Below are positions 1 through 42,373 of a stretch of DNA of 42,373 nucleotides, in pieces. A model generated the notes under the pieces. It searched no databases, was not told the origin of the DNA, and saw nothing but the letters and a program-made list of their open reading frames with translations. Positions within the stretch are counted from its first letter, which is position 1; the number at the start of each line of letters is the position of its first letter. A program made the translations under genes and the position numbers. Source of the stretch: Pseudomonadota bacterium (GTDB lineage: Bacteria > Desulfobacterota > Desulfobulbia > Desulfobulbales > Desulfocapsaceae); assembly GCA_018820855.1 (NCBI GenBank), contig JAHJNL010000080.1, positions 1 to 42,373 of the forward strand. Direction: 5' to 3'.

Positions 1-40
1 CTCGAATGCCAAACCCATGGTACAATAAGCTCGTGGACAT
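1..40 (-). CDS. Transposase N-terminus (partial, runs off the window)
   Basis: ATG (complement of 38-40) opens a frame reading MSTSLLYHGFGIR before the window ends. A purine-rich AAGGAGAAGGGAG stretch directly precedes it and can act as ribosome binding site. The same 13 codons occur at 42335-42373. Such N-termini are known from ISL3-family transposases, where a zinc-ribbon DNA-binding region normally follows. Only the start is visible, so integrity of the transposase cannot be judged. Confidence 0.6.
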   Translation of the reverse strand, partial: MSTSLLYHGFGIR

Positions 41-102
41 ACTCCCTTCTCCTTTCCAAAGTTGATTGGTCTCTTCTTAGAAAGGAAGAACAGTATGTCC
101 AC
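33..102 (-). promoter_or_regulatory. Hairpin sequestering the transposase start
   Basis: On the minus strand GTGGACATACT (complement of 92-102) pairs perfectly over 11 bp with AGTATGTCCAC (complement of 33-43). The second arm contains the transposase ATG. Inside it, CCTTTCTAA can pair with TTTGGAAAGG, which covers part of the Shine-Dalgarno region. A weak promoter-like pair (TACTTA, 17 bp spacer, CATACT; complement of 92-120) places the -10 inside the outer arm. A transcript starting there would lack the outer arm, while read-through RNA from outside would fold. This matches the logic known for IS10/IS50, but is inferred here. Confidence 0.55.
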
Positions 103-140
103 ATTTTCAATTTTTAAGTACGCTTAAACCGGATGAACCA

Positions 141-329: not shown

Positions 330-3300
330 TTACCGGATCGTGCCGTTGTTTTCACCGACCAGTTGCCCTGTATATCCTCCATGGCCCGTTACCATGCCGG
401 TGGCGTTGCAACTGCTGATTGTTCCGTTGTTCATTCCCGCAACTCCACCCCTGAAACCTCCTGAGCCGCTGACATTGCCGCTGGCCTGGCAGTTGCTGAT
501 TGTGCCGTTATTGCTGCCGATCATGCCTCCGACGAATCCGCCCCTGGTACTTTTTACCGCAACAGAAATTCGGCAATTTGTCAGTGCGCCGTAATTGATG
601 CCAGCCAATCCACCTATACTGCCACTGTATCCATTTATAGTGCCGCCGGCCAGTGTTGTATTCTCCACTGTAGCGCCTGAGTCGATGACACCGAACAGGC
701 CAACACGGTTGAGCTTGTGCTGATAGATGGTCAAGTTGCTGATGGTATGTCCTTGCCCGTCGAAGATTCCGGAAAACGGCACTGAGTAACCGCCGACAGG
801 TGCAAAGCCTTTGCTGCCCCAGACATCGCCGGTGTTTGAGGTGCCGGTAGCATCGATATCCGCATTCAGTGTGTAAGCAGCGGCAGATTTAAGCGTCATC
901 AGTTGCAACTGATGCGCATTGTTGATTGAAGTGGAGTACTCAGCAGCCAGCATTGGAGAGGTGGCGCCATCTGAACCGTTGGCATGGTTCAGTGTGCCGT
1001 CGTTATCCACGATTACCCACACTGGCCTTTTGAAATCGAAACCGATGAAATTGTTGGCGCTTAGCATCTGTTCGCCGCTCAGACCAGCGCCGCCCGCGGA
1101 AATATCCTGCCCCGAGGTCTGCATATTCCAGTAACTGGAGCTGACTGAACCGGAAGTGTTGAGGCCAACCAGTCCGCCTACGTTTCCGGACGATCCGATT
1201 ACGGGACCTGCGGCATAGCTGGTGCGAATAGAGGCCGTGCCGGTGCCATTTGCCTGGATTTGCCCGGCAAGACCGCCGACATTGCTGGAACCTGATACAC
1301 TGCATGTTGCGTAGCTGTTGCTGATCGCAGAGGAGCCTGAATCGGTACCCAGGCTATGCCCCACCAGCCCGCCCACCTGGTTGCTTCCGCTCACGCTTCC
1401 AGAGGCGTAACTACTGGTAATGATGGTACTTCCAGTTCCGCCTCCGTTATATCCGACCAGCCCGCCCACATCGTTAATGCCGGTCACATCAACAAGGGCA
1501 TAGCTATTTGTGATACTGGATGTACCGTTGCCCAGGCTGTTCCCCACCAGTCCACCGATGCAATTCCCCGATCCCCTGACACGGCCTGTGGTGAAACTGT
1601 TACTGACCTCGCTGCCGTTCAGGTAGCCAACCAGCCCACCGACATTATTGCCCCCGCTCACGCTGCTGCTGAGAAGCCCAAGGTTACAGATTGCAGCTTT
1701 CGGGTCAACATTCCCGAACAGACCAACATTTGTTGAGGAAGGCAAATTAATACTAAGGTTGTTTATTGTGTGTCCCAGGCCATCAAAAGTACCGCTGAAC
1801 CCATTGATTGGTGTAAAACCTGAGCCTGTATCCCACTGAGCGGTAGCCGTTGCATCGATATCGCTGCCCAGTGCATAGTTGCCTGCAAGGTTCCCATTTA
1901 TGCCCTGCAAATCAGAAGCGGTGGTACTTCCCGGCATCCCCAGCGTGTTGATAACCCTATAATTCGTGACTGTGCCGTCCGTACCCAATTTGGTGGTAAA
2001 ATTGCTCGTACCGGCAGGCAGGTTGACTGGTGCATTGATGAAGTGCTTGCCGGTGTTGTTTGCTGCAACACTTCCCTGACCATATTGCAGTACGAGGCCG
2101 CCAGCCCCTGATATCGTCAGGTTGGCATTGAGGTTGATGTTGCCCTGCGCATTGAGGGTCAGCGTGCCTGTACTCCAGGTGAGCGGGGCATTGATATCCA
2201 GGTCGTTAGCACCACTGCCGCTGCCTGTGATGGTGCGAGTTGGGACTACATTGATATCGTAACCGTGCTGATTGCTTACAAAGTTGTATGAATCCCATGT
2301 GGCGGTGTAGCTGCCCGGCGTAGCGCTGCTGCTCAGAGTCAGACCCGTTGCCGAACCGATGATATTGACACTGACAGGACTAGGGATATTGACCGCGTAG
2401 TCGGCGATATTGTTCAGTGTCTGAGTGGTGCTGTCATAGGCAGGTGTCAGCGTAATTGGCGCAAGAAAGTCACGCAACAGGGGGGAAGAGCTGTCTTCGT
2501 AAATGCGCCATGTAGCTGTACTGCCACCGGCATTGGCGATGCTCCAGCCCTTAAAACTCGAAATCATCATCATCTGAGCACTGGTCAATCCCGTTCCGCC
2601 CGCGGAAGTCGTCTGACCTGAAGTCGTGGTGTTCCAATAGCTGTTGCTGACATTGCCCAGGTTCCCGCCTACCAGGCCACCCACGATATTGCCGGTGCTA
2701 CTTACGCTGCCTGCGGCATAGCTGTTGGTGATTGAGGCCCCTTGGTAACTGCCCCCTGCCAGCCCGCCGACGTTGACGGAACCACCGCTTACCTTGTTGG
2801 CGGCATAGCAATTGGTAATACTGCTGTTTGTACTGTTGTTACCGACCAGCCCTCCGACATCGTTGCCTGGGCTGTCCACGCTTCCCATGGCGCAACTGAC
2901 GCTGATGTTGCCGGTACTGGCTCCTGCCAGCCCACCAACACCATTGCCCGAACCACTAACATTACCTGTGAAGTAGCTGTTGCTGAGTGTGCCGTCGTTG
3001 AGGTATCCTACCAAACCGCCGATATTGACGTTGCCGCTCACGCTGCCATCCATCACCCCCACGTTTTTGATAGTTGCTCCCGTTGATGTGGTTCCAAACA
3101 AACCGACATGACTCGCCGTGGGCTGGTTGATACTGAGATCGGTTATAATATGTCCCAATCCATCGAAAGTACCCGTGTATGGAGTAGTTGTATTTCCCAC
3201 AGGAATAAACCCTGCGCTCCCCCAAACAGTGCTGTTGCTGCCGGTGGACGAGCCATTGATATCGTTGGACAGCGTATAGTCCTCAGCGGGAGCCATCGCC

Positions 3301-5015
3301 ATTAATTGCAGCTGCTGTATATTGGTAATGGTTGTAGAGTATTCAGATGCCAGTATCGGCAGCGTCCCGCCAGTCGACCCCTTTGCATTGTTCAAGCTCC
3401 CGTCGCTATCAACAATCACCCAGCCGGATGCGCCTGGAGTGGAGGTGAAGTTGAAGTCGGTGAAACTGCTTGTCGTTTTCATCTGTTGTGTAGTCAGTCC
3501 ACTGCCTGTAATCGTGCCTCCAGGTTTGTAACCTGTACCGCTCGAATTGGCAGAATTCCAGTAGCTATTGGTTACAGTGCCGGAATTCATGAAGCCCACC
3601 AGGCCGCCCGGGCTCTGCCCCCATTCGTCGTTCGATGTCGCAACTCCTGCGGTGTAGCTATCGGCAACCGTTCCGCCCTTACTGGTGAGTCCGCCGCCGT
3701 TGCCGTTGCCTCCCATCGCTCCAATCAGGCCACCAATACCGGTACATGAATTCAAATTGGGGGTGATATTACAGCTGACGTTGCCTGTCGAGTAACTATT
3801 GCTGATGGAACCGCCGTCACCCAGATTATCTCCCTGGCCCCCCACCAGTCCACCAAAATTCATCCCGCCAAACCCAGTTCCTCCACTGACGCTCCCCGTA
3901 GCGTAACTGTAGGAGATTGCACCAGGTGCATAATTCTCTCCCACCAGTCCTCCGGCGTCCGTCATGCCGGCCTGGCCTCCGGATACAATGCCTGTGGCAT
4001 GGCTATTGCTGATCTGGCCGTAGTTGCGTCCCACCAGTCCTCCGAAACCATACCCAGTTCCCGCATCCGATCCTGTCGAACTCACATTGCCAGTGGCATA
4101 ACTGTTGGTGATTGGACCCTCGTTATCGCCCACCAGTCCGCCAAGCCTTCTGTATCCGCTGATAGTGGCCGTGGAGAAGCTGTTGTAGAGTGTCCCCCCC
4201 CGGTTTAATCCCGTCAGCCCTCCAACGCCAGATAATCCCTTTATGCTGCCGCCAATTATGCCTATATTGCGGATCATCGCTCCCGGCCCAGTCTGTCCGA
4301 TCAGGCCGACCCAAATAGCATTTGGTCTGTTAATCATAAGATTGCCGACGCTATGGCCCAAGCCTTCCAGGGTTCCGCTAAAAGCATTGCTGGTGCTGCC
4401 GATCGGCGTGAAGCCCTGCCCTCCGTTCCAGCCGGAGGTTACACTGCCGTCGATATCGCTGCCAAGCGCGAACCTCTTTGTCAGGTTGGCCGCTTCTGCC
4501 ATGCCTTGCAGCGTTGGCCTAGCCGGTGCGATTGTTGCATCCGCTGCTGTACCAAGGCTGGTGATCACGGTGTAGGTTTGGGCTGGGCCGTCTGTTCCAA
4601 GTGTGGTGCTGAAATTTTGCCCGGCGGGGAGGGTGACCGGAACATTGATGAAATAGTTGCTGGAGTTGTCTGCGGCCGGGGAGCTTTGCCCATAAACAAG
4701 GGCGAGGCTGGCAGTGCCGGAGCCTTTCATCGAGGTGTTGATGCTGATGTTTCCCAGGGCATTGATGGACAGAGTATTGGCGCTCCAGGTCACGATATCA
4801 TTGATGATCACATTACCCGATCCACCATTCTTGCCCTGGCTGCTTTGCAGTATTACTTCGCCAGTTGCCAGCTGGGCAGAAAGTGCTGCCCCGGTGATAT
4901 CGCCGCCGTTTGGCGCTACGATGTAGTCGGTTGCGGCATGGCTCGTAACGGTGCAGAGTGTTAAGGCAATGGTAATCAGCCAGTCGCGACAGCCGTGAAA
5001 TCTATGGTGCTTCAT
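330..5015 (-). CDS. Giant exported GLUG-repeat protein (adhesin-like), C-terminus probably truncated
   Basis: About 1561 aa. I chose ATG 5015 (MKHHRF) over the earlier in-frame start at 5057 because AAAGGAA lies 6-7 nt upstream and a signal peptide follows at once (charged start, hydrophobic residues 12-22, likely cleavage after SHA at 27). The mature N-terminus has a beta-rich module (DYIVAPNGGDI, then NVIINDIVTWS) as in filamentous-haemagglutinin-like proteins. Dozens of GLUG motifs (GGLVGxNxGxIxNSYAxGxVSG) follow, broken by SYWN...GLTxxQM linkers. A bacterial-Ig-like stretch at about 855-925 precedes a second copy of the N-terminal module at about 930-1010. The family is associated with surface or secreted proteins; a beta-helix fold is inferred. 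No C-terminal anchor, sorting signal or beta-barrel is visible. The frame ends in mid-repeat (ENNGTIR), unlike the upstream paralogue 58 nt away, so truncation is likely. Confidence 0.85.
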   Translation of the reverse strand: MKHHRFHGCRDWLITIALTLCTVTSHAATDYIVAPNGGDITGAALSAQLATGEVILQSSQGKNGGSGNVIINDIVTWSANTLSINALGNISINTSMKGSGTASLALVYGQSSPAADNSSNYFINVPVTLPAGQNFSTTLGTDGPAQTYTVITSLGTAADATIAPARPTLQGMAEAANLTKRFALGSDIDGSVTSGWNGGQGFTPIGSTSNAFSGTLEGLGHSVGNLMINRPNAIWVGLIGQTGPGAMIRNIGIIGGSIKGLSGVGGLTGLNRGGTLYNSFSTATISGYRRLGGLVGDNEGPITNSYATGNVSSTGSDAGTGYGFGGLVGRNYGQISNSHATGIVSGGQAGMTDAGGLVGENYAPGAISYSYATGSVSGGTGFGGMNFGGLVGGQGDNLGDGGSISNSYSTGNVSCNITPNLNSCTGIGGLIGAMGGNGNGGGLTSKGGTVADSYTAGVATSNDEWGQSPGGLVGFMNSGTVTNSYWNSANSSGTGYKPGGTITGSGLTTQQMKTTSSFTDFNFTSTPGASGWVIVDSDGSLNNAKGSTGGTLPILASEYSTTITNIQQLQLMAMAPAEDYTLSNDINGSSTGSNSTVWGSAGFIPVGNTTTPYTGTFDGLGHIITDLSINQPTASHVGLFGTTSTGATIKNVGVMDGSVSGNVNIGGLVGYLNDGTLSNSYFTGNVSGSGNGVGGLAGASTGNISVSCAMGSVDSPGNDVGGLVGNNSTNSSITNCYAANKVSGGSVNVGGLAGGSYQGASITNSYAAGSVSSTGNIVGGLVGGNLGNVSNSYWNTTTSGQTTSAGGTGLTSAQMMMISSFKGWSIANAGGSTATWRIYEDSSSPLLRDFLAPITLTPAYDSTTQTLNNIADYAVNIPSPVSVNIIGSATGLTLSSSATPGSYTATWDSYNFVSNQHGYDINVVPTRTITGSGSGANDLDINAPLTWSTGTLTLNAQGNINLNANLTISGAGGLVLQYGQGSVAANNTGKHFINAPVNLPAGTSNFTTKLGTDGTVTNYRVINTLGMPGSTTASDLQGINGNLAGNYALGSDIDATATAQWDTGSGFTPINGFSGTFDGLGHTINNLSINLPSSTNVGLFGNVDPKAAICNLGLLSSSVSGGNNVGGLVGYLNGSEVSNSFTTGRVRGSGNCIGGLVGNSLGNGTSSITNSYALVDVTGINDVGGLVGYNGGGTGSTIITSSYASGSVSGSNQVGGLVGHSLGTDSGSSAISNSYATCSVSGSSNVGGLAGQIQANGTGTASIRTSYAAGPVIGSSGNVGGLVGLNTSGSVSSSYWNMQTSGQDISAGGAGLSGEQMLSANNFIGFDFKRPVWVIVDNDGTLNHANGSDGATSPMLAAEYSTSINNAHQLQLMTLKSAAAYTLNADIDATGTSNTGDVWGSKGFAPVGGYSVPFSGIFDGQGHTISNLTIYQHKLNRVGLFGVIDSGATVENTTLAGGTINGYSGSIGGLAGINYGALTNCRISVAVKSTRGGFVGGMIGSNNGTISNCQASGNVSGSGGFRGGVAGMNNGTISSCNATGMVTGHGGYTGQLVGENNGTIR

Positions 5016-5073
5016 GATTGTTCCTTTTGCTGTTTTTTTTTCGGGATTATGGGACATTTCGGTCGTGGCCCGC

Positions 5074-42192: not shown

Positions 42193-42261
42193 ATGAAAAG
42201 CAAACTGATACTTTTTCTATTCATAGGCTTACTTTGGTTCATCCGGTTTAAGCGTACTTAA
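42193..42261 (+). pseudogene. Signal-peptide gene fragment interrupted by the IS
   Basis: ATG 42193 has AAGGGTGG 9-10 nt upstream and encodes MKSKLILFLFIGLL, a typical signal-peptide or membrane-anchor start. The native codons end at 42234; the IS terminus begins at 42235/42236 and supplies eight more codons (WFIRFKRT) before a stop. The original exported or membrane protein therefore lost everything after residue 14. The remainder should lie beyond the IS, outside this window. Confidence 0.6.
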
Positions 42262-42272
42262 AAATTGAAAAT

Positions 42273-42342
42273 GTGGACATACTGTTCTTCCTTTCTAAGA
42301 AGAGACCAATCAACTTTGGAAAGGAGAAGGGAGTATGTCCAC
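42273..42342 (+). promoter_or_regulatory. Hairpin sequestering the transposase start (right copy)
   Basis: GTGGACATACT (42273-42283) pairs with AGTATGTCCAC (42332-42342), and the second arm includes ATG 42335-42337. An inner stem covers part of the Shine-Dalgarno. A weak promoter-like pair, TACTTA (42255-42260) and CATACT (42278-42283), 17 bp apart, would start RNA after the outer arm. Confidence 0.55.
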
Positions 42343-42373
42343 GAGCTTATTGTACCATGGGTTTGGCATTCGA
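42335..42373 (+). CDS. Transposase N-terminus (partial, runs off the window)
   Basis: ATG 42335 opens MSTSLLYHGFGIR up to the window end, identical to the left copy. GGAGAAGGGAG precedes it. An ISL3-family assignment is likely but rests on 13 residues. Confidence 0.6.
   Translation, partial: MSTSLLYHGFGIR

Follow-up and report, generated by a model that had tools for sequence, protein, structure and literature searches.

The 42,373-nucleotide stretch analyzed here (the window) corresponds to an entire contig (G000:C67), which begins and ends within the same insertion sequence (IS). The left end of the IS runs from position 139 to position 1 on the minus strand, and a second copy on the plus strand closes the contig (Table 1). 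Overall, the genome holds four such left ends: two on C67 and one on each of the contigs C66 and C44. The same 138-139 bases begin C66 and C44 and sit at the right end of C67; the sequence is common to all up to position 139 and diverges beyond it. Right ends with a matching terminal repeat (GGTTCATCCGACTAAAGCGTACTT) were found on contigs C100 and C98, which encode the end of an ISL3 transposase, with PF01610 matches at the contig ends.

The window itself includes 13 transposase codons, and the family assignment was tested on a related element (L011, which equals L021) whose leader is 96% identical to that of the window and whose hairpin is identical. This element is complete in a Desulfocapsa sulfexigens MAG (DQTH01000059.1), where the protein start MSTSLLYHGFGIR continues to 403 aa. 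Its product matched NCBIfam NF033550 (ISL3) with 332.5 bits (cut-off 180), PF01610 with 264.1 bits, and PF13542 with 45.7 bits. ISL3 elements carry terminal inverted repeats of ~20-30 bp and a target direct repeat of ~8 bp, and terminal inverted repeats are present here, GGTTCATCCGGTTTAAGCGTACTT facing GGTTCATCCGACTAAAGCGTACTT. Judged by these sequences, the IS with the hairpin is a member of the ISL3 family. A second intact ISL3 element of the same genome (contig C82) does not show start sequestration. Searching plasmid DNA with the leader gave no match, and no relative was found among viral contigs; phage records carry ISL3 transposases, with identities of 23-30% among the ten matches listed. 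At a further locus (L015, G018:C155:55678-55701), we observed a lone 24-bp perfect match to the left terminal repeat, with the rest of the leader missing, which is possibly a solo end.

Given their surroundings, both copies in the window could be exposed to read-through. The left copy is ~190 bases past the stop of a co-directional open reading frame (ORF) of 1575 aa (330-5057, minus strand) that points into the IS. The right copy interrupts, in the transposase sense direction, a short signal-peptide-like ORF (42193-42261, plus strand; MKSKLILFLFIGLL...) ~14 codons after its start, and translation in the frame of this ORF would stop inside the terminal repeat. The 1575-aa ORF resembles a secreted repeat protein, with GLUG-like repeats recognized by eye. 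We also considered stops in all three frames between the left terminal repeat and arm 1, which could keep host ribosomes from melting the hairpin. The window has them, as do just 7 of 28 relatives (3.0 expected), and this feature is therefore not claimed.

Table 1 Features of the insertion sequence in the window
Feature	Positions	Strand	Remarks
Left terminal inverted repeat (IRL), GGTTCATCCGGTTTAAGCGTACTT	116..139	-	Outer end at 139, the limit of the sequence shared by the four left ends
TTGAAA box just 5' of arm 1	105..110	-	Candidate -35 of the transposase promoter; also contributes to the U-rich tract on the opposite strand; either reading possible
Arm 1, GTGGACATACT	92..102	-	From sequence; co-varies with arm 2
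Arm 2, AGTATGTCCAC	33..43	-	Covers the start codon (40-38), the second codon, and most of the third; from sequence and covariation
Shine-Dalgarno AAGGAG	49..54	-	8 nt before the ATG; paired in the inner helix, which co-varies in relatives
First transposase codons, MSTSLLYHGFGIR...	1..40	-	Run off the contig end
Candidate antisense extended -10, TGGTACAAT (TGG-TACAAT)	18..26	+	Within transposase codons 5-8; 6 nt from the perfect stem
Predicted antisense stem-loop RNA, ~80 nt	33..115	+	5' end near the stem base; ends in the U-rich tract 103-115 (ATTTTCAATTTTT)
Second IS left end	42236..42373	+	Same hairpin at 42272-42343

The hairpin over the transposase start

Read on the minus strand, the two arms form a perfect 11-bp inverted repeat with the transposase ATG in the second arm, within the outer helix. 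The initial annotation had described this stem, leaving the strand unnamed. The inner stem that it proposed over part of the AAGGAG is present in the minimum-energy fold of the window's leader and co-varies in relatives, and the predicted fold of the leader sequesters both the Shine-Dalgarno (SD) and the start codon. The inverted repeat carries the SD and ATG in its distal arm, as in the fold-back of IS10. Read on the plus strand, an ATG inside the 92-102 arm opens a frame of only 10 codons. The minus-strand leader (139-1) folds with -40.0 kcal/mol (z = -2.8; 1 of 200 shuffles as stable), and the plus-strand hairpin (33-115) with -30.5 kcal/mol (z = -5.7; 0 of 200).

To compare relatives, we used the best 80 of 131 loci, 75 of which reach residue 1. 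Adding the window, L011, L013, L014, L016, L017, and L019 gave 82 leaders; L011 and L017 repeat L021 and L030, leaving 80, and removal of near-copies left 58. Anchoring was done on the arm-1 core GG[AG][CT]A alone, which 34 of the 58 non-redundant leaders hold and 24 lack. In the five pairs upstream of the ATG, which were not used for anchoring, 114 of 170 cells were complementary across the 34 leaders. When arms were exchanged between elements, the mean was 82.6 (sd 4.8), and none of 10,000 permutations reached 114. On a maximum-likelihood protein tree that includes 25 of these elements (13 of the 58 proteins are too short for it), 91 of their 125 cells were paired with 21 both-sided changes; sliding the partners by 1-3 bases gave 33-49 paired cells and 3-13 both-sided changes. 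Once the pairing count was done, three leaders (L063, L082, and L092) were taken to be chance anchors and dropped, leaving 31 for the promoter, U-tail, Leu5, joint-feature, and A-tract counts; the 25 elements of the tree count do not include them either.

With the window also excluded, alignment A2 has 30 rows, and in it RNAalifold found the SD helix unprompted (alignment columns 15-18 with 60-63), with many both-sided changes. The two helices together show 60 both-sided cells, against 25.8 in shuffled alignments (0 of 500 as high). The initial annotation had named the comparison of the arms across related ISs as a test on which it could fail, and the counts instead revealed co-variation. A covariance model built from A2, from which the near-identical L021 is absent as well as the window, matched window positions 103-32 on the minus strand with 42.4 bits (E 8.5e-10) and the other strand with 29.3 bits. 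Among 198 genomes of the phylum, nine, including that of the element itself, had matches with E of 0.001 or lower. Of nine such loci that were read, five (L144, L145, L146, L149, and L151) start with MST..(L/I)YH after the hairpin, mostly with a stop early on; two others gave different frames, and two passed no filter.

The coding sequence is constrained at the hairpin as well. Ser2 is encoded by TCC in 32 of the 34 elements with the core, compared with 104 of 434 serines elsewhere in these genes (P 1e-16), and in 6 of the 24 elements that lack the arm-1 core. The third base of Thr3 gave no pairing signal with arm 1 (9 of 34 vs 9.2). A conserved RNA control element of one ISL3 branch is the best explanation for the hairpin. 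The leaders of Nitrosomonas type (L039, L045, L059, L064, L076, and L088) have no GGACAT arm; upstream they have TTGAA(A/G), and most carry TTTTTCAA or something like it directly before the ATG. They perhaps form a different stem at the same place, and three of them (L039, L059, and L076) were not significant in the sequestration test described below.

We next estimated how arm 1 affects access to the translation start. The free energy to clear positions -14 to +3 had a median over the 34 leaders of 18.8 kcal/mol with both arms, 8.3 without arm 1, and 8.9 with arm 1 scrambled, and the full RNA was costlier to open than the cut RNA in 32 of the 34. The corresponding values for the window were 20.5, 10.0, and 7.5, and in its fold the inner stem over the AAGGAG persists after loss of arm 1. 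A shuffle test of start sequestration was positive for 45 of the 58 leaders of this branch, 9 of 18 other ISL3 elements (from plasmids), and 6 of 96 random ATGs; the remaining 13 of the 58 showed no significant sequestration. Of the plasmid elements, 17 of 18 are just 23-34% identical, and their stems are mostly unrelated in sequence. The positive ones are IS1476, ISRta1, and ISAeme19, elements of Loigolactobacillus, Rhodococcus, Pandoraea, Cupriavidus, and Vibrio, and the closer element of Pseudodesulfovibrio. Directly downstream of the Cupriavidus ISL3 transposase, Rfam identifies a Group II intron (L127:1984-2275). The reading of the hairpin as a translation lock is well supported by the covariation, and stray host-gene transcripts probably cannot make transposase, because the start signal sits in a hairpin kept by matched changes.

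Candidate transcripts of the two strands

The initial annotation had placed a -10 box at CATACT in the first arm, so that RNA initiated in the IS would lose this arm and stay translatable and read-through RNA would fold shut. CATACT is present in arm 1, and its CAT is the complement of the ATG. Relatives have CATGCT, CATGTA, CATGCG, CAATCA, and others at that hexamer, its bases varying with the arm. A general sigma-70 promoter and terminator scan of positions 1-2500 listed nothing at the IS, and starts inside arm 1 scored no better than shuffles (mean z -0.16). We thus rejected CATACT as a conserved -10. A promoter at the circle junction, judged by eye, did not fit.

Sigma-70-like scores had a mean z of 0.11 for starts before arm 1 and were slightly above shuffles for starts beyond it (mean z 0.69, SE 0.18, n = 31). 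A TTGAA box lies between the IRL and arm 1 in 18 of 31 relatives, with 6.2 expected from shuffles. The best promoter fell beyond arm 1 in 23 of 31, a placement that by itself is as in shuffles (70%), and the window's own best promoter scored 5.9 vs 6.3 for its shuffles. A start of the transposase mRNA beyond arm 1 is tentatively favored, because the scores there and the TTGAA box exceed shuffles, and a weak promoter bracketing arm 1 would fit slightly better than CATACT. With this candidate in place of CATACT, the logic that the element's own RNA lacks arm 1 survives.

The opposite strand carries signals of its own. The sense strand immediately 5' of arm 1 is rich in A (present in 18-27 of the 31 relatives at positions -8 to -3), and on the antisense strand this stretch becomes a U-rich tract after the stem. 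Averaged over the 31 relatives, the U-tail score was 2.56 on the antisense strand; random DNA from these loci scored 0.68 (z 14.6), and the sense strand, which has no terminator-like U tract after arm 2, scored 0.56. The antisense tract is imperfect in the window, and only 5 of 31 relatives pass our own implementation of a terminator score.

At the other end of the stem, antisense promoter scores were 6.27 in the first 120 bases of the gene, compared with 4.0-4.6 in the next four segments of 120 bases and 5.65 in the sixth (24 of the 31 elements, those with enough gene). An extended -10 (TGnTAnnnT) formed by the LLYH codons ends 4-8 nt before the stem base in 19 of 31, where chance is ~6% per window. 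The protein dictates most of this box: its T and A are forced by Tyr7 and its TG by His8, and its last T needs an A-ending Leu5 codon. Leu5 has such a codon in 20 of 31, vs about 59 of 743 other leucines (8%; P 5e-14), and the adjacent Leu6 in 0 of 30. A U-tail score of 2 or more was found in 20 of 31 relatives, the -10 in 19, and both antisense features in 13. The asymmetry of G-U and A-C cells (38 vs 37) gave no pointer to the acting strand. Positions 1-400, compared with all Rfam families, had a single match with E up to 1, to a microRNA family (E 0.47, 18.5 bits; gathering score 78); Rfam gave no family for the relatives' leaders either, and its RNA-OUT model was not matched.

On the opposite strand, a promoter-like box stands at the base of the hairpin, and a U tract follows its far end. 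An antisense stem-loop RNA complementary to the transposase start, as RNA-OUT is in IS10, would have this layout, and it looks as if this strand encodes a small antisense RNA spanning the hairpin. These features were absent from the initial annotation, and a putative RNA-OUT-like gene coextensive with the hairpin is the most interesting part of the locus.

Start hairpins in other families

The hairpin had also been expected to be an informative case in another IS family. ISL3 indeed lies outside the IS10/IS50 family, but similar leaders are frequent in other families of related genomes: start sequestration was found in 11 of 20 DDE_Tnp_1 and 3 of 8 IS256 transposases (start codons called automatically), so a start hairpin is not specific to ISL3. 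Having a stem of at least 8 pairs at the start is by itself a poor discriminator: 16 of 25 ISL3 elements have one, as do 120 of 268 random ATGs.

Further sets were scored for the antisense -10 near the stem base and for the U tail. Stems of 6 pairs were accepted for the DDE_Tnp_1/IS256 and plasmid ISL3 sets. The former consisted of 18 of 28 other-family leaders, mostly sequestration-positive, 14 of which had stems; the antisense -10 reached z 2.6, and the U tail 1.77 vs 0.71 on the sense side. In the plasmid ISL3 set, which had been eyed beforehand, the values were z 3.5 and 1.98 vs 0.52. The fresh sets, with a threshold of 8 pairs, comprised 27 of 29 new ISL3, 10 of 24 PF13701, and 11 of 21 PF13751 loci (25, 8, and 9 after removal of near-copies). 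In fresh ISL3 elements (16 stems), the antisense -10 was not enriched (z 0.6), and the U tail was 1.67 vs 0.45 on the sense side and 0.87 in random hairpins at ATGs, whose two tails scored 0.87 and 0.73. IS1380-like elements (7 stems of 8) gave z 2.4 and a U tail of 4.02 vs 0.19 on the sense side; IS1182-like elements (5 stems of 9) gave z 0.9 and 1.13 vs 0.40, which is not clear.

In the four sets not previously inspected for -10 and tail, 10 of 42 stems had both antisense features, compared with 2 of 120 random hairpins, at joint cut-offs (4.7 and 2.4) set after the DDE_Tnp_1/IS256 and plasmid ISL3 results had been seen; four of the ten look closely related. L202, L203, L218, and L219 look related, and a single locus appears in two sets as L201 and L274. 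Individual loci of PF01609, PF00872, and PF13701 (L193, L202, L203, L218, L219, L170, L162, L251, L262, and L253) combine a start-codon hairpin with an antisense -10 close to the stem base, and most of them also have a U tract past arm 1. We tentatively propose, at somewhat less than even odds, that one inverted repeat with two jobs, a sense fold-back lock and a promoter-to-terminator antisense RNA, arose repeatedly in ISL3, DDE_Tnp_1/IS4-like, IS256, and IS1380-like elements.

Alternative readings and known systems

Our main reading, to which we assign a probability of roughly 60%, is an IS10-like module in which a fold-back lock is combined with an RNA-OUT-like antisense RNA, built like the IN/OUT region of IS10. 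The sequence analysis provides paired and conserved arms, an SD and a start codon within helices, constrained codons, and the placement of an antisense U-rich tract and -10; we infer the translational effect, both transcription starts, and the existence and action of the antisense RNA. RNA entering from host genes would contain both arms and fold, and it would yield little or no transposase because the fold hides the SD and the ATG. Transcription from the IS itself probably begins at arm 1 or past it, so that the resulting mRNA would lack this arm, and the inner stem would still dampen that mRNA. On the opposite strand, the same inverted repeat probably gives rise to an RNA-OUT-like antisense RNA of ~80 nt, with its promoter within transposase codons 5-8, its 5' end at the stem base, and its 3' end at the U-rich tract on the far side of arm 1. 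This RNA would pair with the transposase start region, keeping expression down as copy number rises.

A simpler account is that the fold-back lock acts alone on sense read-through RNA, the antisense -10 and U tract being by-products of the LLYH codons and of an A-rich or -35 box. It explains all the structural and codon-2 evidence with no antisense RNA, and the bases imposed by Tyr7 and His8, the possible -35 TTGAAA within the A-rich stretch, and the fresh ISL3 set with its unenriched -10 speak for it. We nevertheless consider it unlikely, though a serious contender, since it leaves unexplained both the A-ending bias of Leu5 (20 of 31 vs 8%, with 0 of 30 at Leu6) and the stem-adjacent U tail, which recurs in other ISL3 elements and in other families with unrelated stems. 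Distinctly improbable is the converse, in which the repeat serves as an antisense RNA and/or as an outward terminator of antisense transcription leaving the IS and sense folding is incidental. The pairing statistics, which do not separate the strands, and a U-rich tract on the antisense side only (mean 2.56 vs 0.56) would agree with it, but the helices cover the ATG and the SD, arm 1 more than doubles the cost of opening for the ribosome, and the sense strand scores better with the hold-out model (42.4 vs 29.3 bits), although sequence terms contribute to this score.

The arms could also act at the level of DNA, as a binding site for the transposase or a repressor; the repeat lies just inside the IRL, and an inverted repeat could bind a dimer. 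Such a role is very improbable, as arm sequences vary among relatives with complementarity kept (the 21 both-sided changes on the tree), other ISL3 elements mostly have unrelated stems at the same place, and the right end, by eye, has no equivalent. We give the least credence to chance or pure coding constraint: ATGTCCAC does encode the conserved MST, but the covariation, the hold-out search, and the codon bias at Ser2 contradict it.

For a handful of elements, it is known in detail how the transposase is protected from host transcription, and the preferred combination of lock and antisense RNA can be compared with these. IS10 belongs to the IS4 family, and its protection from external promoters, which the ISL3 element would share, was reportedly described by Davis, Simons and Kleckner in 1985. 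IS200 is said, in work of Beuzon in 1999 and Ellis in 2015, to have a structure over its transposase translation start together with antisense control, and in this it would resemble our element, whose antisense RNA is predicted; the IS200 structures are separate ones, and its transposase is different. ISPpu9, too, is of a different IS family from ISL3. IS10 and, by prediction from sequence, the ISL3 element have an antisense RNA that overlaps the translation start and comes from the opposite strand; they differ in that the transposase here is of the ISL3 family and the Rfam RNA-OUT model finds no match. The predicted module resembles IS10 in function and is a member of neither the IS10 family nor the Rfam family.

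RNA-OUT of IS10 is 69 nt long, its first 35 nt are complementary to the start region, and it ends at nt 47 of IS10 (PMC5006887). Two pIN changes each destabilize RNA-OUT, according to the same source (PMC5006887), which suggests that the IS10 mRNA promoter overlaps the hairpin DNA. In ISPpu9, a 5'-UTR structure blocks transposase translation, and the UTR is covered by an antisense RNA, which differs from the one predicted here in that it stimulates translation (PMC8450116). The "mobile attenuators" of Naville and Gautheret (2010) are predicted 5' terminators upstream of IS transposases, ISL3 in Firmicutes included (PMC2965389). The purpose proposed for them is the same, namely to limit how strongly an IS is expressed after insertion into transcribed DNA, but they are predicted sense-strand terminators, whereas the element in the window would target the ribosome-binding site and has no U tract on its sense side. 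Among the matches listed from the open-licence literature, the text available describes no ISL3 start hairpin or antisense RNA beyond the 5' terminators of PMC2965389; the excerpts of PMC10266640, PMC11677980, PMC3141674, and PMC7968456 likewise mention neither.

In the ISL3 element, which is of an unrelated IS family, such protection can be read from comparative sequence: the helices covering the start codon and the SD co-vary, synonymous codons are constrained, and the signals for an antisense RNA are strand-specific. A start-codon inverted repeat, a -10 by the stem base, and a U tract past arm 1 make up a simple signature that may serve for finding antisense-controlled ISs in uncultured bacteria, and it would let one ask how often the IS10 design evolved. 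If the tentative proposal of repeated origin is true, the IS10 arrangement would be a general convergent design of bacterial ISs, with the antisense promoter written into the first codons of the transposase.
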